Virus record (IMG/VR): IMGVR_UViG_3300031658_000091
Location: 1 to 27,144 of that record
Strand: one strand, 5' to 3'
Length of the DNA: 27,144 nucleotides
DNA from: a virus
The translations under genes were made by a program, and so were the position numbers. Under the pieces are notes generated by a model, which had not been told where the DNA came from, did not search any database, and saw only the letters and a list, made by a program, of their open reading frames with translations. Shown here one piece after another: positions 2,679 through 12,812 of the stretch (position 1 is the stretch's first letter; each line of letters starts with the position of its first letter).

Positions 2679-2909
2679 TTAGAGCAGTTCTATTTTATCA
2701 ACAGTTCTAAAAATGCCTTTACTAAGATTGTAAGTACTACCATCATAATCTTTTACTTCACTACACAATGGCAAATCTTGAAACAAACCAGACTTATGAA
2801 CAAATTTATTCATTCCTAAACTTTTGCAGTAAATTGCATCAGTCCATTCATCAGTATTTTCATTAAAAGAGATATATACTTTGATTATTTTATCCTCTGG
2901 TATTATCAT
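2679..2909 (-). CDS. Small hypothetical protein
   Basis: I do not recognise this 76-residue protein. It begins MIIPEDKIIKVYISF and is beta-rich, with one short motif DYDGSTYNLSKG. Its ATG shares bases with the stop of the upstream DnaA-like gene (TAATG), so the two are probably translated together and may work together. No transmembrane segment or signal peptide is seen. Confidence 0.7.
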   Translation of the reverse strand: MIIPEDKIIKVYISFNENTDEWTDAIYCKSLGMNKFVHKSGLFQDLPLCSEVKDYDGSTYNLSKGIFRTVDKIELL

Positions 2910-3292
2910 TATTCGTTTATTAATTTGATTAAATCAATAGTTGCTTTATCTTCAGTTCCTATAAACATAGCTACTTTATTTTTGCCATGTATCACAGAAG
3001 CGTGATGTCGGTTTAATTTCTTTCCGATGTCTACCAATGACATAATATTTTTATCGTTCATTAGATACATTATTACGTGCCTACACGCGACTATTTCATT
3101 GTTTCTATTACTACTTCTTAAATCTCTTAAAGTAATATTACAATGCAGAAAGCAATTATAAACTAATCTATCAAAATATATATCCATTCTGTGCCTTTGT
3201 TCTATTGGAGTTGGTAGTATATAAGCTAATGCCATTTGTTCAGCAATAACAATATCCAATTCATCCCTTTGTTGTAATAATTTTTCTATCAT
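2909..3292 (-). CDS. Stand-alone DnaA domain IV-like DNA-binding protein
   Basis: The 127-residue protein resembles the C-terminal DNA-binding domain of the initiator DnaA. Residues around 53-112 follow the domain IV pattern: DLRSSNRNNEIVACRHVIMYL matches the usual L-x-S-x-x-R-x-x-x-IV-x-A/C-R-x-x-x-M-Y-L helix. SLVDIGKKLNRHHASVIHGK matches the signature helix-turn-helix (IG-x-x-x-x-R-x-H-x-S/T-V-x-H). The AAA+ ATPase domain of DnaA is absent; the first ~50 residues are a helical extension. It probably binds specific sites in double-stranded DNA, either at the phage origin or at host DnaA boxes, without ATP-driven oligomerisation. That role is inference. A TAAATTTG promoter box lies five bases before its ATG. 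The downstream 76-residue gene is coupled by TAATG. Confidence 0.85.
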   Translation of the reverse strand: MIEKLLQQRDELDIVIAEQMALAYILPTPIEQRHRMDIYFDRLVYNCFLHCNITLRDLRSSNRNNEIVACRHVIMYLMNDKNIMSLVDIGKKLNRHHASVIHGKNKVAMFIGTEDKATIDLIKLINE

Positions 3293-4139: not shown

Positions 4140-5342
4140 TTAAAATATATGCGTTAATCTTGCAACCTGCCCATGTTCTTTGTGATGTATAAAAGCTTCT
4201 ACTGCCTGCGGTGCGTGTTGGAATCCTTTTCTATGATGCCAGCTATCTGTACCACTTGGACTTCTTAATGTTTCTATACATACACTAAATATATCTTTTG
4301 CAGTCTTATGATGTAAGTGATGCGTATATATATATCTGTGTTTACATTTTGCCCATTCCTTTGGCGCTTCTTCTGCCATCAATCCATGTAATTTATCTAC
4401 TTTTGCGCCATCGCCATGAGTTGATCCAATTAAATTATCACCATAAACAGTATACTTTCTGTGACTCATGTCATTATCAAAAGTCACTTGTTTACAGTTT
4501 TGAAACCAACTGGACACGCTATCTAATAACATGAAGCCATGCGTGTAATCGTGATTACTTGGATTAAAAACAACCTCTACATCTGCTACGGTTAAAAGCT
4601 TCTCAATAATTTCAACTAATAACTTTTTAGCCATGTTATAATTATCATACCACATTTGATCTGTGTCTTGACCAGTTCCACTTGTAGTTGTGCTGTGCGC
4701 ATTATCTACATGAAGTATATCATTACCAGCAATAAATATAATCTTATCAATTTCAAAACCATTACTTTTTTGTAAAATACCTTCTAATCCTTTACGAACT
4801 CTTTGAACTGCTAACTGGCTATTGTAAACTTCTCCAGTTTCAAATGAACTGCAAATTTTACCGATATGAACATCTGCTGGATCAAATACTAAACAATGTC
4901 CATCTTTTGATTTTGTTCTTTTAAACTTTGGATATTTGAAAGCGTATTTCTTAGCTTCTGAAAGCATTAATTCATGCAATTCTTTTATCTTTTCTTCTGA
5001 ACCTATACTTTCAGCTTTTTCTTTGTATTGAATCCATTGTTGGCCAGTAGTTTTTGAAGTAGATATTTTTACTATCTCAAAATTCTCTGGAATTTCTATT
5101 GGTTCGCTTTGTAGTTTTTCAACTGAAGAAACAATATCACCTTTTTTATCGTACTTGTTTTGCGTATTCACAAAAGAACGCTGTAAAGGTTGTTTGTTCA
5201 TATCTTTAACAATAGCTATTTGTTCATCAGTAAGCCATCTATGTATTTTGTTTCTACCTTTCGGTATTTCACCATCCCTAACTGGAATCAATCCTAATAA
5301 TTCAGCTTGTTCTTTAGTTACTCTTAATCGTTTCTTTTTCAT
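4140..5342 (-). CDS. Calcineurin-like metallophosphoesterase
   Basis: This 400-residue protein has all five metal-binding motifs of the calcineurin-like phosphoesterase fold in its second half: DPADVHIGK (D157/H159), AGNDILH (N207/D208), PSNHD (N263/H264/D265), STHGD (H309) and YTHHLHH (H342/H344). The binuclear metal centre should hydrolyse phosphodiester bonds. Relatives include Mre11/SbcD nucleases and phage phosphoesterases, so a role in phage DNA processing is likely but not shown. The first ~150 residues lack a catalytic motif. They begin with a basic segment (MKKKRLRVTKEQAELLGLIP) that reads like a helix-turn-helix. The gene lies between the clamp gene and the HNH gene. No SbcC-like partner ATPase is present. 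Confidence 0.87.
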   Translation of the reverse strand: MKKKRLRVTKEQAELLGLIPVRDGEIPKGRNKIHRWLTDEQIAIVKDMNKQPLQRSFVNTQNKYDKKGDIVSSVEKLQSEPIEIPENFEIVKISTSKTTGQQWIQYKEKAESIGSEEKIKELHELMLSEAKKYAFKYPKFKRTKSKDGHCLVFDPADVHIGKICSSFETGEVYNSQLAVQRVRKGLEGILQKSNGFEIDKIIFIAGNDILHVDNAHSTTTSGTGQDTDQMWYDNYNMAKKLLVEIIEKLLTVADVEVVFNPSNHDYTHGFMLLDSVSSWFQNCKQVTFDNDMSHRKYTVYGDNLIGSTHGDGAKVDKLHGLMAEEAPKEWAKCKHRYIYTHHLHHKTAKDIFSVCIETLRSPSGTDSWHHRKGFQHAPQAVEAFIHHKEHGQVARLTHIF

Positions 5343-5397: not shown

Positions 5398-6474
5398 TTA
5401 TTGTATCATCATTGGCATAGCTAACATTAAAACATTATCATTTGGTTTAATAATTCCAGCAGTCATTGAATTACCTATCTGAATTTCTATATTAGTTTCT
5501 TCAATATTTTGTAGCATTTCAATTATCTTTCTTGAATTAAATGCAAGTTCTACATCTTCACCATCTTTTTGACAAATTAATGATTCCTTTGCTTCACTAT
5601 TATAATCTAAATCTCTTGAAGATACTTCTAATTCATTATCTTTAAAATTTAAAGTACTTGAAAATGTTACTTTATTTGAAAACAAAGATACTCTTTTTAA
5701 AGATTGCAAAAGACTTACTTTATCAATCTTTATAATGTTTTTATTATCTGGTATAATTGATTGGTATTTTGGAAATACTGAATCCACTAATCGAGAATAT
5801 AAAGTAATGTCATCATATTGAAAACAAGCATTTGTATCATTTACATTTAGTAATAGTTCACTTTCACTAAGCGAATTTTTTAATAAAGATAATGCTTTTT
5901 TTGGAATGATAAAATTATTTTCTAATTGATTACATTTAAAAGAATACTTTGATAACATACTTGAATCAGTACCTACTAAATTCAGATTATCATTTTCAAA
6001 CTCAAAAAATAAACCAGTCATTGCAGGTCTTAAAGCATCATTTGAAATTGCAAAGAAAGTACTATTGATAGCTTTTTTTAATTCGGAACTATTAATAGTA
6101 ATTGGATCACTTTTAATTAATGGACTTTTTGGAAAATCTTCTGAATTTTCAGCAGTCATTTTATATTTACCTTTATCACTTGAAATAGTAACTGTATCTT
6201 TTTTTACTTCTATTTTAACATTATCGTTTGATAGTGTTTTTAAAGTATCTAAGAATATTCGGTAAGGTATGCAGGTTTTACCGTCTTCAATTCCTTGTAC
6301 TTGTACATTGGTAGTCATTGTATTTTCTAAATCGGATACGGTTATATTCATTAAGTTTCCTTTTACTTCTATTAGATAGCATTCTAATATTGGTAGTGCG
6401 GCATTGTTTGAAATAATACCGCTAAGTAAGTTTAATTTATTCGTTAATTCTTTTGTATTTACTTGAAATTTCAT
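5398..6474 (-). CDS. dnaN: DNA polymerase III beta subunit (sliding clamp)
   Basis: This 358-residue protein is a full-length DnaN homologue, which forms a dimeric ring holding the replicative polymerase on DNA. The three-domain clamp pattern is visible. It starts MKFQVNTKELTNKLNLLSGII with PILECYLIE and SDLENTM near residues 28-52. The middle has RPAMTGLFFEFENDNLNLVGTD around residue 148. Domain III has DSVFPKYQSIIPDN, and the protein ends LMLAMPMMIQ, close to the LLMPMRL-type end of cellular clamps. Length matches cellular DnaN (~365-375). No polymerase or clamp loader is seen in the window, so the ring would have to be loaded by the host tau complex. It lies between the helicase-methyltransferase and phosphoesterase genes. 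It was probably captured from a Bacteroidetes chromosome at some point. Confidence 0.93.
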   Translation of the reverse strand: MKFQVNTKELTNKLNLLSGIISNNAALPILECYLIEVKGNLMNITVSDLENTMTTNVQVQGIEDGKTCIPYRIFLDTLKTLSNDNVKIEVKKDTVTISSDKGKYKMTAENSEDFPKSPLIKSDPITINSSELKKAINSTFFAISNDALRPAMTGLFFEFENDNLNLVGTDSSMLSKYSFKCNQLENNFIIPKKALSLLKNSLSESELLLNVNDTNACFQYDDITLYSRLVDSVFPKYQSIIPDNKNIIKIDKVSLLQSLKRVSLFSNKVTFSSTLNFKDNELEVSSRDLDYNSEAKESLICQKDGEDVELAFNSRKIIEMLQNIEETNIEIQIGNSMTAGIIKPNDNVLMLAMPMMIQ

Positions 6475-6494: not shown

Positions 6495-8675
6495 TTAAAA
6501 TAATTCTTTAATTGTATCTTTTTCTAATTGTACGCTTTTATGATTCTTTGCATTAATATCAAAGTAACTTTCTTTTAATTCAATAGATATACTTTTTCTA
6601 TTCATTTTAATTGACTGACATCCCTCAGATCCAATTCCTCCAAATGGGCTAAATATAGTTTCATTCTCATTTGAGTATAAATGTATTATTCTTTCAATAG
6701 TATCTAATTGTAATGGACAAATATGCTTCTCATCATTTCCATCTCTGGCACTTCTGAATTGTAATGTTCTTGAATAATTAACATCCATCCAAACTGGAGA
6801 AGCGTATTTTTGCCATAAATCTACTGGTAGATAGTTTGGTTCGCTTGAATCGGTATCTTGATGAGTTACTGGAACTTCATTATCTCCTGCGTTTCTAAAA
6901 AATAAAACATAATCAGGAATACCTACTCTACTCATTACGCTATCTTTCTTTATTGTTTTATGTAAAAGTCCTAATGCTTTTGTTCTTTGCATTTCAGTTA
7001 CTGGATTCTTCCATATTGTTGTTTTTGCATGATATATAAATCCTTCTTGAGTAAACCAGTCAATTAACATTCCGCTAAAATCTCTTAATCCAATATATCC
7101 TTCTTTACCTTTTTGGATTGGTAAGTCCATACAATGAATAGCGCATATTCTACCACTTTTTAATACTCTTTTTAGTTCAGGTATTAAGTATTTAAAGTGA
7201 GTTTCAAATTGCTTATAATTAGATACATTTCCCATGTCCTCAGACTTATCTGAATAAACATATAATTCAGCAAAAGGCGGAGAGAATACAACTAAATCTG
7301 CTGAGTCATCTTTTAATTTTTTACTTTCTTCTACACAATCACCATTTAACAAATGATAGTTTTCTGTTTTAATTTCTTTTTTCATAATATTAACTTTGCT
7401 TTTACTTGTTTTATAATCTGTTTCAGCTGAATATTTAGCCATTTCTTTTATCATTTCTTTATGTTTCTTTTCTTTATCTAATATTGATTGTCTTACATTT
7501 TTTTGACTTTCAGGAACTAATAAATGTACTGTTACTTTATTTTTTTGACCAAATCTGTAGCATCTTCTTACAGCTTGATAAAATGCTTCAAATTTAAAAT
7601 CATATGAAGTAAATACCATATTGCTACATTGCTGGTAATTCATGCCAAAAGATGCTATGCTTGTTTTTGTTATTAAGTTTTGAAATTCTACATTTGCAAA
7701 TCCATTTAAATTATTAGCTTTTACTTCTGGCTTATCTTTACCTTGTACATTTATAGAATTTTTTAAAACCTTACTTAGTTTATCTGTTTCAGTATTCCTT
7801 AATGACCAAACAATGAATTGTTCTTCTGAACTATTAACTATTTCTATAGTTTTTTCTATTCTTTTATCAAAAGACCTTTTTAGATCTCTATGTAATTCAG
7901 TAGCACTAACAGCCGCATCACAAAACAAGCTACCAGTATTATTTTCTACTGGTATAATATGCTCTATATATTCAATTTCAGGCAAATCATATCCATTATC
8001 ATCAAATCCTAATGTTTTTGGATTATCTACAGAAATAGACCATGTACATACATACTTCCAGAATGTATCTTTTGCGTGTTTTCTTAATCTCCATTTGCTT
8101 GTTTCTCCACCATCATGAACAAAGAACATAGCTAACATCTCTAAGTAGCTCATAGCTCCTAAAAACTCACTATGCTGCCCTAATTCCATATGGTCGTTTG
8201 GCGATGGAGTTGCTGTACATGCTAATTTATAAGGCGTGTTTTTAAATGTATTAATTATTAAGCTTGACATTTTGCCGTCCTTACCTTTTAATATAGAACT
8301 CTCATCAAGAACCACCCCTCCATAAATAGAAGTATCTAAATTTTTAAGCTGTTCAAAATTAGTAATATCAAAAGAATCTAAATTAATACCAAATTGCACA
8401 GCTTCTCTTTTTGTTTGAGCAACTACAGCCAATGGAGCTAATATTAATACTTTTTGCCTTGTATGATTAAATACTGCATCCGCCCATGCAAGTTGCTGGA
8501 TTGTTTTACCTAATCCGCAATCTTCAAATAATGCAAATCTTCCTTTTTTTAATGCAATCTTAACGATATGCTTTTGAAAGTCAAATAGATTAACATTCAA
8601 ATCTGTTTCTTCAATATCAAAACCACTTGATATAAATGTTTTTTCTTTAGTTTTTAAAAATTCTTTGTACTTCAT
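6495..8675 (-). CDS. SF2 helicase fused to a beta-class DNA methyltransferase
   Basis: Residues ~25-400 of this 726-residue protein form a SNF2-like SF2 helicase: Walker A EDCGLGKT (51-58), DESS box (124-127), TATPSPND (154-161) and motif VI QAVRRCYRFGQ (367-377). Residues ~435-726 form a DNA amino-methyltransferase. The catalytic motif SPPF (465-468) comes before the AdoMet motif FSPFGGIGSEG (675-685), the order of the beta class. SPPF rather than DPPY favours N4-cytosine methylation, though N6-adenine is possible. An in-frame ATG at 7385 sits at the domain junction with an A-rich upstream, and could yield a separate 296-residue methyltransferase. The protein may modify phage DNA against restriction while moving along it. 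A VRR-NUC nuclease and a second SF2 helicase lie just upstream. Confidence 0.92.
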   Translation of the reverse strand: MKYKEFLKTKEKTFISSGFDIEETDLNVNLFDFQKHIVKIALKKGRFALFEDCGLGKTIQQLAWADAVFNHTRQKVLILAPLAVVAQTKREAVQFGINLDSFDITNFEQLKNLDTSIYGGVVLDESSILKGKDGKMSSLIINTFKNTPYKLACTATPSPNDHMELGQHSEFLGAMSYLEMLAMFFVHDGGETSKWRLRKHAKDTFWKYVCTWSISVDNPKTLGFDDNGYDLPEIEYIEHIIPVENNTGSLFCDAAVSATELHRDLKRSFDKRIEKTIEIVNSSEEQFIVWSLRNTETDKLSKVLKNSINVQGKDKPEVKANNLNGFANVEFQNLITKTSIASFGMNYQQCSNMVFTSYDFKFEAFYQAVRRCYRFGQKNKVTVHLLVPESQKNVRQSILDKEKKHKEMIKEMAKYSAETDYKTSKSKVNIMKKEIKTENYHLLNGDCVEESKKLKDDSADLVVFSPPFAELYVYSDKSEDMGNVSNYKQFETHFKYLIPELKRVLKSGRICAIHCMDLPIQKGKEGYIGLRDFSGMLIDWFTQEGFIYHAKTTIWKNPVTEMQRTKALGLLHKTIKKDSVMSRVGIPDYVLFFRNAGDNEVPVTHQDTDSSEPNYLPVDLWQKYASPVWMDVNYSRTLQFRSARDGNDEKHICPLQLDTIERIIHLYSNENETIFSPFGGIGSEGCQSIKMNRKSISIELKESYFDINAKNHKSVQLEKDTIKELF

Positions 8676-9089: not shown

Positions 9090-9122
9090 AATATTAAGTC
9101 TAATAAAGTTATAAACCTAATT
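9090..9122 (-). repeat. 33-bp repeat, copy B (pairs with 8713-8745)
   Basis: This is the second copy, overlapping the stop of the VRR-NUC gene and lying upstream of the 21-residue peptide gene. The two mismatches are adjacent. No third copy was noticed in the window. Confidence 0.6.
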
Positions 9123-9377
9123 AAATTCAATTAAAACATCTTTTTTTGTAAAAAAACTTTTAAAACCTTTTTCTTTTAACTCTTTTAATCTGAACTTTTG
9201 CAATGTAGATAGTACACCAGTAGCTGTTTTAACTTCTATAAATATAGGTTCTTCTCCTTGTTTTAAACAAAGCAAATCTGGTATTCCATTCTTATTAGTT
9301 TTTATTAATTTTAAAACATAATATCCATTTGATTCAAATTTATTAATGATCTTCTTTTGATAATCTGCTTCTTTCAT
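9117..9377 (-). CDS. VRR-NUC domain nuclease
   Basis: This 86-residue protein is a minimal VRR-NUC (PD-(D/E)XK) nuclease. It begins with the family's E-x-x-x-Q motif (MKEADYQKKI) and has GIPDLLCL with D34, then FIEVK with E48 and K50, followed by LQKFRLKELKEKG. Stand-alone VRR-NUC proteins of this size are common in phages and are usually linked to an SF2 helicase gene. That holds here: its ATG overlaps the helicase stop (ATGA). It is expected to cut branched or structured DNA during replication or recombination. The precise substrate cannot be read from the sequence. Confidence 0.92.
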   Translation of the reverse strand: MKEADYQKKIINKFESNGYYVLKLIKTNKNGIPDLLCLKQGEEPIFIEVKTATGVLSTLQKFRLKELKEKGFKSFFTKKDVLIEFN

Positions 9378-10585
9378 AGGTCTTTTAATGTTTTTTTGAA
9401 TGTTTGCAGGGTAAAATTCTTTTTATTCATTACAGCTTTATGAATTTTGTATTCAATACCAGCTTTTGAAAATAACCAATAAACATCATTTTCTTTTCTA
9501 TCTAATGTTGTCATTCTATCTCTAAACTGCCAGTAAGTCACAGCTGAAAAATCTATATTATAAGCAACTATCATTTCTGCTTTTGATAAGTTTATACCTT
9601 CCCTTCCAGAAACAAATTGTAAAGCAATACTTTTATTGGTTGTATTAAATTCATTTATATCTTCTGTAATATCTAATATTTCTTTGATGGCTTTTAATTC
9701 AGCTTTGAATTTATAAAAGATAGCTAATTTTTTACCTTTAAAATTATCACGAATATAATTAACTTTTGAATAATCTATTATTTTACTGTTTCCACTTTCA
9801 AACTTTACAGTTCCAGAACTTAGCTGATGAACCTTTTGCATGAGCTTAACAGAAGTATCTGCCAAAATAACTTCATTAGTTCCATCAATTACTAAATCAC
9901 GTTTCAAACGCTTTATCAAACTATATGTTACTGGCAGCATTTCAACTTCTTTAATATGTTCAGAAATTGTAGAACTGAATCCAGCTTCTTTTTGCGTGTA
10001 TGTTAATTTATATTTATCAATAACATTACTTAGTTTACTATATTCTATATTTTTATAGCTTTTTGCTTGGCCATAACTTGTATAAACTATTTCAGGAGTT
10101 CCTAATACATTAAAAAACTTATAGAAGTTCGCAAACTGTTTAAACGGTGTAAAGGGACTAATCCAAAATTGATGAAATAATTGTGAATTTGATTCTGGTG
10201 TTATTGTTCCAGACATTAAAATTAAATCATTATTTACAAAGCTTCTTAATATCTTAGCTTTTTTGTTTGGCTTTGGATAAGTTCCTAAATTATGGCTTTC
10301 ATCTGCAATAACTAAATCAAAGTTTCCTTTAATATTATGCAGATTTTCGTAATTCGTTACTGTAATATCATATTTGTGGCCAGCAGTAATATAATCTTCT
10401 TGAATAGAACTAATTGCTTTTTTCTTTGTTACAAATAAAACATTGCTGTAATACTTTGCAATGTCTAAAGAAATATGAGTTTTGCCAGTTCTAACTTCAA
10501 AGCAAAGAATTAATATCTTATGCTTTTTCAGAATTTCTAAACCTTGTTCAGAAGCTTCTTTTTGGTATGATCTTAATTTAAACAT
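9374..10585 (-). CDS. SF2 DNA helicase
   Basis: This protein of about 403 residues is a SNF2/DEAD-like helicase that couples ATP hydrolysis to movement on DNA. Motif Q/I is RSYQKEA near the N-terminus. Walker A is EVRTGKT (30-36), the DEAH-type box is ADESH (94-98), motif III is LMSGTITPES, and the C-terminal RecA fold has SGREGINL and QFRDRMTTLDR as motifs V and VI. I start at the ATG at 10585. The frame can be extended to a TTG at 10594, inside the end of the primase gene, but ATG is more likely. It is coupled to the VRR-NUC gene downstream and overlaps the primase gene upstream. The three probably act together in replication-fork processing. Confidence 0.9.
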   Translation of the reverse strand: MFKLRSYQKEASEQGLEILKKHKILILCFEVRTGKTHISLDIAKYYSNVLFVTKKKAISSIQEDYITAGHKYDITVTNYENLHNIKGNFDLVIADESHNLGTYPKPNKKAKILRSFVNNDLILMSGTITPESNSQLFHQFWISPFTPFKQFANFYKFFNVLGTPEIVYTSYGQAKSYKNIEYSKLSNVIDKYKLTYTQKEAGFSSTISEHIKEVEMLPVTYSLIKRLKRDLVIDGTNEVILADTSVKLMQKVHQLSSGTVKFESGNSKIIDYSKVNYIRDNFKGKKLAIFYKFKAELKAIKEILDITEDINEFNTTNKSIALQFVSGREGINLSKAEMIVAYNIDFSAVTYWQFRDRMTTLDRKENDVYWLFSKAGIEYKIHKAVMNKKNFTLQTFKKTLKDL

Positions 10586-12812
10586 TCTTTTCAAGTTGTT
10601 TAATATATTTGTAAATCATTGTTAAGCTAACACCTAATTGTTCGCTTGTTTCTTTTTTGTTCAGCTTTGGATTTTGAGAATAAAGAATTTGAAATTTTTC
10701 TTTTGTGCTTTTACCTTTATTATTTACAATTACATTCTTTATTTCAGAAGTTTCAATACTATCAATTTTAATCTTCTTAGCCATTGCAATAAAATATTTA
10801 CTTAATTGTTCCGCTTTCAAAATAGATTCTTTAGAAATTAAATCCCTTTCAGTTACTTTCCTTTCAGTATCTGAAAATACTTGAATTAATAATGCAAATC
10901 TTGGAATATATGATTTTTGTTTTGGCAACATACTTTTCATGTATTCATTTTCTTCATCTGAATTTTGTGTTTCTGTTATTTCATTAAAAATTCTTATCCA
11001 TTCTGTTTTTGCTTCTGGACTAAATTTTAAAACTATTGGTTCAATGCTTCCATCTCTATTTCTTCTTAGTACATTGTTCTTAATTGATTCATAGAATGAT
11101 ACTATTTTATCTGAAAACCAATTAATAGTATCATAACTCATTTCTGCATCATTGTATTTTTCAACTTTTAGATCTGGATATGATAATAGCATTCTATCCA
11201 TGAAACCATTATCTTTATTTTCTTCAGTATAAAAAGAATTAAAAATTGCTGGTTGAATACCACCTAAAATTGGAATCATTGGACTTGAAACAAAAGAACC
11301 TGCCCTTGAAATTCTGTTTAGATTTACACTTTTACCACTCCATGTACTAAGCCAAAATTCTAAATCTGAACCTTGTTTATATTTGTTCATATCCTTAAAC
11401 CATCCTGCAAGTTCATCTTTAAAAACGCCAACACCATTATCATTTTCTTGATGTAAATCAACTAAAGCTTCTAAAGTAATATCATTTGCAATAAATTGTT
11501 TTTTAATTGGCTTCTGAATTTCTGGATAATCTTTTTTATCCTTTGGCGTTAAGTTATCATAATGCTCAAACTTTTCATAGTCTTTAATGTATGAAGAAAT
11601 TTCTTTATTGTTCTGTTTTTCTAATGGAAATATAATATTTGATATTGATGGCGTTTTTCCAATACCAGCTTTTCCAACAACAGCTAACCAAACAACAGCA
11701 GATTCTTGCCATCCTTTTTTGACTTCTATTTTCATTGCATTACCAATACATAAAGAAGTGAGCCATAACAATGAACTGCCCATATAATCAACATTGCTGT
11801 TTAATGTTGTACTACATTCTGAAATATAAGTTTGTACTGTTTTTGGGAATATGTCAATTGGAAATTCAAGATCCTTTGTTTCTATTTGAATATTTTCTTT
11901 CGGTTCTTGTTCTTTTTTTATCCTTCTTGTACCATAGCCATCAAGATATGCTTGTTTTGATGCTGCAGACCGATTACTATTAAAGTATTTACAAGTATAA
12001 GCAGAAAATGCGGTGTATTGTTTTTCACTTTGGTATATTGTACCAGTACTGTGCAAAAACATTAAGTCTTTATCTTTATAAATATATCCACTATGTACGC
12101 TTTCAGAATTATGCCTTTTGATAATATACTTATCTGCTAAATTTCTTATAATTGTGAAATCTTCAGAAACAATATCCCAAACTGAATTTTTATTATTGAA
12201 ATCATCCCATGCAGTAATTTCACCTTCAATTTGTACAAAGTCTTTTTTAGCTGGTGCAATCTTTACAGTTTCAGTATCAATATAATTGTATGTTTCTGCA
12301 ATTAAGAATAATATATTTCTATCATTATCTGAAATGAATTGAATATTTTGATAATCCAAATCGCCTAAATGTTTATCATAGGCGATTACCATTCCACCAA
12401 TCCCCCTTGTTTCAATTATTGCTTCAGTATGTCCCTTTAAGGATGCAATTTTTTGGTTTCCTTCAACTCTTTTACTTTTATATAAAATATGATAGCCATT
12501 ATTTTTAGTTTTCTTAATAACAAACTTATCATTAAAATCCAGAATATTATCTTGAAGAAAAGATAAAAATTCAGCCCACCATTCTAATTGTTCTTTGGCA
12601 GTACTTAATACTTTTAAATCTATATCTAAAACTTCCAGATAATTGAAGCCAGTAATTAATCCATATAATGGAGCATTCAGAAGTTCAATTTGTTCTGAAG
12701 TTCTTGCAGTAGTTTGGAAGTCTTTCCATGCGCCATCTGGTCGCTTATCCTCCTTGCAAGGAATAACAGAATATCCTAAAGAAGATAAAAGTTGTAAATG
12801 TGTTTTTTTCAT
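10578..12812 (-). CDS. Primase-polymerase fused to DUF3987 helicase-like ATPase
   Basis: At 744 residues this is the largest gene. The N-terminal ~170 residues are a PrimPol (archaeo-eukaryotic primase) domain: SVIPCKEDKRPDGAWK, the catalytic LDIDLK (D63/D65), GYHILY (H108) and ETRGIGGMVIAY. Residues ~310-620 are a DUF3987-type ATPase with Walker A GKAGIGKT (380-387), VFKDELAGWFKDMNKY and GGIQP. The end is a helix-turn-helix (NKKETSEQLGVSLTMIYKYI). Such fusions prime synthesis and unwind the origin in phages and plasmids. The gene is first after the repeat array at 12997-13238, with its own promoter box and a structured leader, which fits an origin-linked replisome gene. Confidence 0.92.
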   Translation of the reverse strand: MKKTHLQLLSSLGYSVIPCKEDKRPDGAWKDFQTTARTSEQIELLNAPLYGLITGFNYLEVLDIDLKVLSTAKEQLEWWAEFLSFLQDNILDFNDKFVIKKTKNNGYHILYKSKRVEGNQKIASLKGHTEAIIETRGIGGMVIAYDKHLGDLDYQNIQFISDNDRNILFLIAETYNYIDTETVKIAPAKKDFVQIEGEITAWDDFNNKNSVWDIVSEDFTIIRNLADKYIIKRHNSESVHSGYIYKDKDLMFLHSTGTIYQSEKQYTAFSAYTCKYFNSNRSAASKQAYLDGYGTRRIKKEQEPKENIQIETKDLEFPIDIFPKTVQTYISECSTTLNSNVDYMGSSLLWLTSLCIGNAMKIEVKKGWQESAVVWLAVVGKAGIGKTPSISNIIFPLEKQNNKEISSYIKDYEKFEHYDNLTPKDKKDYPEIQKPIKKQFIANDITLEALVDLHQENDNGVGVFKDELAGWFKDMNKYKQGSDLEFWLSTWSGKSVNLNRISRAGSFVSSPMIPILGGIQPAIFNSFYTEENKDNGFMDRMLLSYPDLKVEKYNDAEMSYDTINWFSDKIVSFYESIKNNVLRRNRDGSIEPIVLKFSPEAKTEWIRIFNEITETQNSDEENEYMKSMLPKQKSYIPRFALLIQVFSDTERKVTERDLISKESILKAEQLSKYFIAMAKKIKIDSIETSEIKNVIVNNKGKSTKEKFQILYSQNPKLNKKETSEQLGVSLTMIYKYIKQLEKNV

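Follow-up and report, generated by a model that had tools for sequence, protein, structure and literature searches.

T4-type phages have a trimeric sliding clamp, gp45, with two domains per subunit, which acts together with a polymerase and a clamp loader of the phage. Homologues of the bacterial clamp, DnaN, are encoded by other described phages, including Arthrobacter phage Hestia (complete), in which the clamp gene lies two genes after a helicase/methylase gene, Aurantimonas phage AmM-1 (a complete GenBank genome), and Salinibacter phage M1EM-1 (a partial genome). No polymerase is annotated in AmM-1, in the part of M1EM-1 that was read (28 of its 36 kb), or in Hestia beyond the first 1.5 kb of its record, part of which is covered by the terminase gene. 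The clamp pocket consists of subsite I, which takes the LF anchor, and subsite II, which accommodates Gln and the aliphatic position in the canonical clamp-binding motif, Q-phi-x-[LM]-[FL], with H175 and M362 bridging both subsites (PMC11139829). Among methyltransferases, Bacillus DnmA has been reported to localize preferentially near the replisome, in an article whose main text does not contain the word "clamp" (PMC9973331). Here, a viral DNA of 27,144 bases (the window; IMG/VR record IMGVR_UViG_3300031658_000091), in which the first gene and the tape-measure gene are cut at the ends, was analyzed with respect to its own DnaN homologue.

Identity of the clamp and gene content of the window

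The gene at positions 5398 to 6474 (minus strand) is a complete ORF from ATG to stop and encodes a DnaN-type beta sliding clamp of 358 amino acids (aa). Its three DnaN domains occur in order, each scoring above its curated Pfam cutoff (PF00712, E = 6e-27; PF02767, E = 1e-21; PF02768, E = 2e-15), and phrog_947 (DNA polymerase processivity factor) was matched over the full length with an E value of 4e-65. The best solved relative by sequence was the beta clamp of Elizabethkingia anophelis (PDB 8dt6; E = 3e-59, 34% identity), to which the AlphaFold model of the window clamp (pLDDT 92.5) compared with a TM-score of 0.96. The first-pass annotation had recognized a full-length bacterial-type clamp here, and the ORF, the three domains, the phrog_947 match, and the predicted fold confirm a three-domain bacterial-type beta clamp. 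In the alignment, the residues that correspond to the dimer interface of the E. coli clamp (L264, F265, Y104, R261, and E297) and the basic DNA-channel residues (R72, R149, K192, and K193) are kept or similar, both sets being positions with these roles in the E. coli clamp. No close relative of the window clamp was recovered in a single-sequence scan of viral contigs, and megablast of the first 25 kb of the window against phage records gave no match.

Portal, capsid, protease, and tape-measure genes are present, and the record thus represents a tailed phage. The minus strand carries, in order, genes for a PrimPol-DUF3987 protein, a helicase, a VRR nuclease, an SNF2 helicase-methyltransferase, the clamp, an exonuclease, an HNH protein, a DnaA domain IV protein, small ORFs, and the large terminase. 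The first of these (10578 to 12812, minus strand; 744 aa) joins a Prim-Pol domain (PF09250; 27.3 bits against a cutoff of 22.8) to a DUF3987 primase-helicase, with candidate catalytic residues in DID at residue 63, GYH at 106, and IIETR at 132. Domain and PHROG matches identified the superfamily 2 helicase (9374 to 10594, minus strand; 406 aa) and the VRR-NUC, resolvase-like nuclease (9117 to 9377, minus strand; 86 aa). The segment from 9117 to 12812 that holds these three genes is a cassette recurring across many IMG/VR contigs, and a single scan confirmed 465 candidate relatives for the PrimPol protein. Downstream of the clamp lies a DNA repair exonuclease (phrog_704; 4140 to 5342, minus strand; 400 aa). 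The DnaA domain IV protein (2909 to 3292, minus strand; 127 aa; PF08299, E = 3e-15) stands alone, without the ATPase part, and may bind the origin or act as a regulator.

Pfam and PHROG searches of the window proteins that were scanned revealed no clamp loader and no A-, B-, or C-family polymerase, and every unannotated ORF is shorter than about 220 aa. The earlier reading that neither a polymerase nor a loader is visible therefore holds for the window, with the exception of the PrimPol-DUF3987 protein. Because of its Prim-Pol domain, "no polymerase in sight" has to be understood as no processive replicative polymerase, the domain being a primase-polymerase and not a processive replicase.

Phage clamps without a polymerase, and their origin

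An alignment-based scan yielded 37 viral IMG/VR records with a DnaN relative, a terminase being present in 19. None of the 37 matched PolA, PolC/DnaE, or PolB; since many are fragments, the absence in any single record weighs little, and the longer records likewise lack a match. The first-pass annotation had supposed that phages with a clamp usually carry their own polymerase, which, for this type of clamp, is contradicted by these records together with Hestia, AmM-1, and the M1EM-1 stretch. A clamp without a polymerase is a recurrent arrangement, not an anomaly. Such clamps sit in many records, and no account of why a polymerase-less phage should carry one was found in the literature searched.

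Several database entries require caution. The unannotated MT83xxxx fecal scaffolds, which gave the top tblastn matches in the phage collection, were set aside as probable chromosome pieces because a DnaA-like ORF lies beside the DnaN gene in at least one of them (MT836192, here L005); MT836192 and similar GenBank entries are filed as phage and resemble bacterial chromosome. The Campylobacter/Staphylococcus phage records MG065691, MG065686, and OR844989 (the last of 282,636 bases) also show DnaN matches that may be host contamination.

A maximum-likelihood phylogeny (88 clamps with 50 host DnaNs) required eight changes of the phage label, six of them forced by well-supported branches, indicating that DnaN entered phages several times. 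Bacteroidota DnaN was the source of the phage DnaNs, on several occasions. The placement among Bacteroidetes DnaNs that had been suggested as a check put the window clamp near Flavobacteriia-type DnaNs, but its exact position is unsure on a branch of length 1.13, and among the host DnaNs of the tree set, identity to it peaked at 41%.

The interval that the window lacks could be judged from a related record (L305), which has the first window gene, TerL, tape measure, protease, and MCP in common with the window, in identical order. L305 spans the absent interval, which there consists of ORFs of 133, 393, and 633 aa plus the tape-measure protein and nothing else; the three ORFs had no PHROG match and, from their position, are probably tail genes. 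The gap in the window, some 6 to 7 kb by comparison with L305, most likely contains no polymerase, so that a polymerase gene in the missing part, one of the two findings that were to refute the first-pass proposal, is unlikely. Moreover, 50 long records related to the window via capsid, terminase, exonuclease, PrimPol, or helicase-methyltransferase contained neither PolA nor DnaN, which makes the clamp an optional extra in a replisome that depends on the host. Replicons of this type apparently lean on the host for replication.

The peptide-binding pocket and clamp-binding tails

In the window clamp, the pocket positions L155, T172, L177, P242, V360, M362, and P363 are either retained or occupied by a conservative replacement, and the changes H175S, R176M, Y323K, V344M, and V247I introduce residues found at these sites in none of the 50 host clamps. 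Codons S172 and M173 (5956 to 5961, minus strand) form the changed pocket rim at E. coli H175 and R176, where all 50 host DnaNs have H/Y/F and R/K, and codon K316 (5527 to 5529, minus strand) is the changed subsite II residue at E. coli Y323, where all 50 have F/Y/L. Loss of the hydrophobic groove had been considered fatal to the first proposal; the deep LF pocket is retained, but three rim residues that are near-invariant in the 50 host clamps are changed. Conserved columns were broken at 4 of 15 pocket positions, compared with 4 of 56 elsewhere (P = 0.056), and the same test on five fast lineages pooled gave P = 0.036. On these values, the statistical case for a specially remodeled window pocket is weak, and the residue changes are suggestive of altered specificity rather than proof of it. 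In most phage clamps, the pocket is host-like.

The gene adjoining the clamp (6495 to 8675, minus strand), whose stop codon precedes the start of the clamp gene by 20 bp, encodes an SNF2-type helicase fused to an N6/N4 DNA methyltransferase (726 aa), with relatives of up to 81% identity; we propose it as a candidate clamp client. This neighbor and its clamp-binding-like tail had been overlooked in the first-pass annotation. The extreme C-terminal hexapeptide, TIKELF (6498 to 6515, minus strand), occupies the L-x-L-F tail site of the family: 53 of 60 nonredundant close relatives have L-x-L-F there (e.g., STLTLF), in a tail that otherwise varies, and position 2 is L in 54 of the 60 and K in the window protein. 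TIKELF retains the LF anchor and fails both the strict motif and its hexameric form, having neither the Gln nor the aliphatic residue at position 2. The structural model of the protein (pLDDT 59.5) places the last residues outside the final helix, at low confidence. More distant helicase-methyltransferases beside phage clamps end in QPSLF (L113 and L115) or QGSLF (L123), and those near the clamps of the Arthrobacter phages Hestia and Anekin end in LPALF and MPSLF, respectively. Among the close relatives whose loci were fetched (>70% identical), none had DnaN, making the window the single case of this close family beside a clamp. Since clampless relatives bear the better-formed STLTLF, the tail motif may be meant for the host clamp alone. 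The only other motif-like peptides in the window, QPAIF within the PrimPol-DUF3987 protein and QVLMY in a protein of 142 aa, were judged unconvincing as clamp-binding motifs.

Across the clamp-bearing phage contigs, the canonical motif ended 15 of 143 ORFs within three genes of the clamp versus 1 of 435 located farther from it on these contigs (Fisher P = 6e-9, a significance inflated because the counts include homologues, chiefly PcfK-like proteins, and thus lack full independence). The contrast is large despite this homology; in clampless relatives, the motif ended 16 of 2,809 ORFs. The motif-ending neighbors belong to several families, comprising PcfK-like proteins, helicase-methyltransferases, and several unnamed proteins. 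The gene order PcfK-PcfJ-DnaN recurs in the Bacteroidota phage contigs L094, L091, L103, and L105, where the PcfK-like tails carry the canonical motif (QIDLF, QVDLF, QGELF, and QGSLF). Among viral contigs, a Q-x-x-L-F ending was found on 12 of 26 ORFs with methyltransferase motif IV versus 27 of 2,404 others, and such tails occur on N6/N4, C5, and D12 methyltransferases alike. Methyltransferases of differing classes end in this way on clampless contigs also (L050:4988-5647, L308:7555-8199, L176:8935-9576, and L312:10510-11268) and, to judge from their termini, look as if made for binding the host clamp. Host DnaE (Pol III alpha) has an internal QVSLF in eight of nine Flavobacteriaceae genomes and QISMF in the ninth, and the tails of host DinB resemble QLKFDF. 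No description of clamp-binding tails clustering near phage clamps was found in the literature searched, which took in few subscription journals and no bioRxiv preprints; this clustering is new here and is the part worth pursuing.

Proposed role of the clamp and comparison with known systems

We give a probability of about 0.5 to the reading that the window clamp was captured from the host, is host loaded, and is used by both host Pol III and the phage helicase-methyltransferase. A functional beta clamp gene would have been taken from a Bacteroidota host, replication would start with the phage's own PrimPol/DUF3987 primase-helicase, the host clamp loader would place the phage ring on phage DNA, and host Pol III would work on it. 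The helicase-methyltransferase would also join the ring via its clamp-binding-like tail, so that modification would be tied to freshly synthesized phage DNA. Because the phage and its relatives have neither a polymerase nor a loader, use of the phage clamp by host Pol III is the most parsimonious reading, and it agrees with the data. The first-pass interpretation is thereby supported in part: redirection of Pol III gains from that absence but is burdened by the rim, since H175S, R176M, and Y323K could weaken Pol III binding; the departure of TIKELF from the canonical motif likewise speaks against the proposed mechanism. More tentatively, polymerase-less phages may repeatedly capture a clamp with, or next to, a tail-bearing protein (methyltransferase, PcfK, or others) as a private tool belt that couples modification to replication, with rim and tail having drifted here into a possibly orthogonal pair.

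The strongest competitor, a serious one to which we nonetheless give rather low odds, is that the extra clamp merely lets host Pol III run many phage forks at once, with no special clients and with the pocket changes as drift. The host-like pockets of most phage clamps, the repeated gains of DnaN, and a pocket enrichment that reaches only P = 0.056 agree with such a dosage effect, against which stand the clustering of clamp-binding motifs beside phage clamps, the three altered rim residues of the window clamp, and the 50 relatives that cope without any clamp. An unlikely alternative is a replacement clamp unaffected by an agent that targets the host pocket, whether a defense protein, a toxin, or the inhibitor of a competing phage. 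For resistance to a clamp-targeting defense, which the first-pass annotation had also suggested, no direct evidence was found. The rim changes do sit at the peptide-ligand site, and clamp-targeting proteins exist: Twort gp168 inhibits clamp loading (PMC11139829), and a toxin/antitoxin system aimed at the clamp has been described (PMC12795458). In the window, however, no known anti-phage or anti-defense partner stood out when ten proteins were run through PADLOC, the sole matches being those of the helicase-methyltransferase to methyltransferase and helicase models, and most phage clamps have kept a host-like pocket.

Quite improbable, too, is an exclusive pair in which the ring binds TIKELF, mostly ignores host ligands, and acts as a dedicated tether rather than as a polymerase clamp. 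Subsite II differs on both sides, through H175S, Y323K, and V344M in the clamp and the L-to-K change at position 2 of the tail, and, compared with the close helicase-methyltransferase relatives fetched, only the window protein adjoins a clamp; but this is one case on a long branch with the borderline enrichment given above, and since the LF anchor is intact, as is most of subsite I, host ligands may still bind. That the clamp serves an own polymerase in the missing part of the genome is very improbable, given the L305 interval and the 50 relatives without PolA, even though the record looks fragmentary, with its tape-measure and first genes cut.

If the captured clamp does work with host Pol III and phage clients, the phage ring may hold phage enzymes on newly made DNA besides serving the host polymerase. 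From the clustering of tails and the tails of methyltransferases, a clamp, whether of phage or host, may be a platform that places protective methylation on new phage DNA, and phage methyltransferases would then be a source of natural clamp-binding peptides.

Compared with known systems, the window clamp shares with T4-type gp45 the role of a phage sliding clamp but differs from it as a three-domain DnaN without a phage polymerase or loader. It resembles the phrog_947 clamps of M1EM-1, AmM-1, Hestia, and Anekin in having no annotated polymerase in the stretches read, at about 22 to 25% identity; in Hestia and Anekin, a helicase/methylase gene and an HTH gene lie just upstream of DnaN, whereas no HTH gene separates methylase and clamp in the window. 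The Bacteroidota phage clamps beside PcfK/PcfJ (e.g., in L094) are likewise stand-alone DnaNs, ∼38% identical to the window clamp, on contigs without a PolA, PolB, or PolC match and next to a neighbor with a clamp-binding-like tail; unlike in the window, the neighbors are PcfK-like (QIDLF) and PcfJ-like proteins instead of a helicase-methyltransferase, and the pocket is host-like. With bacterial DnaN (8dt6), the window clamp has in common the three domains, fold, length, C-terminal MPM motif, and deep LF pocket, and it is set apart by its 34% identity, its long branch, and the S, M, and K that stand at E. coli H175, R176, and Y323.
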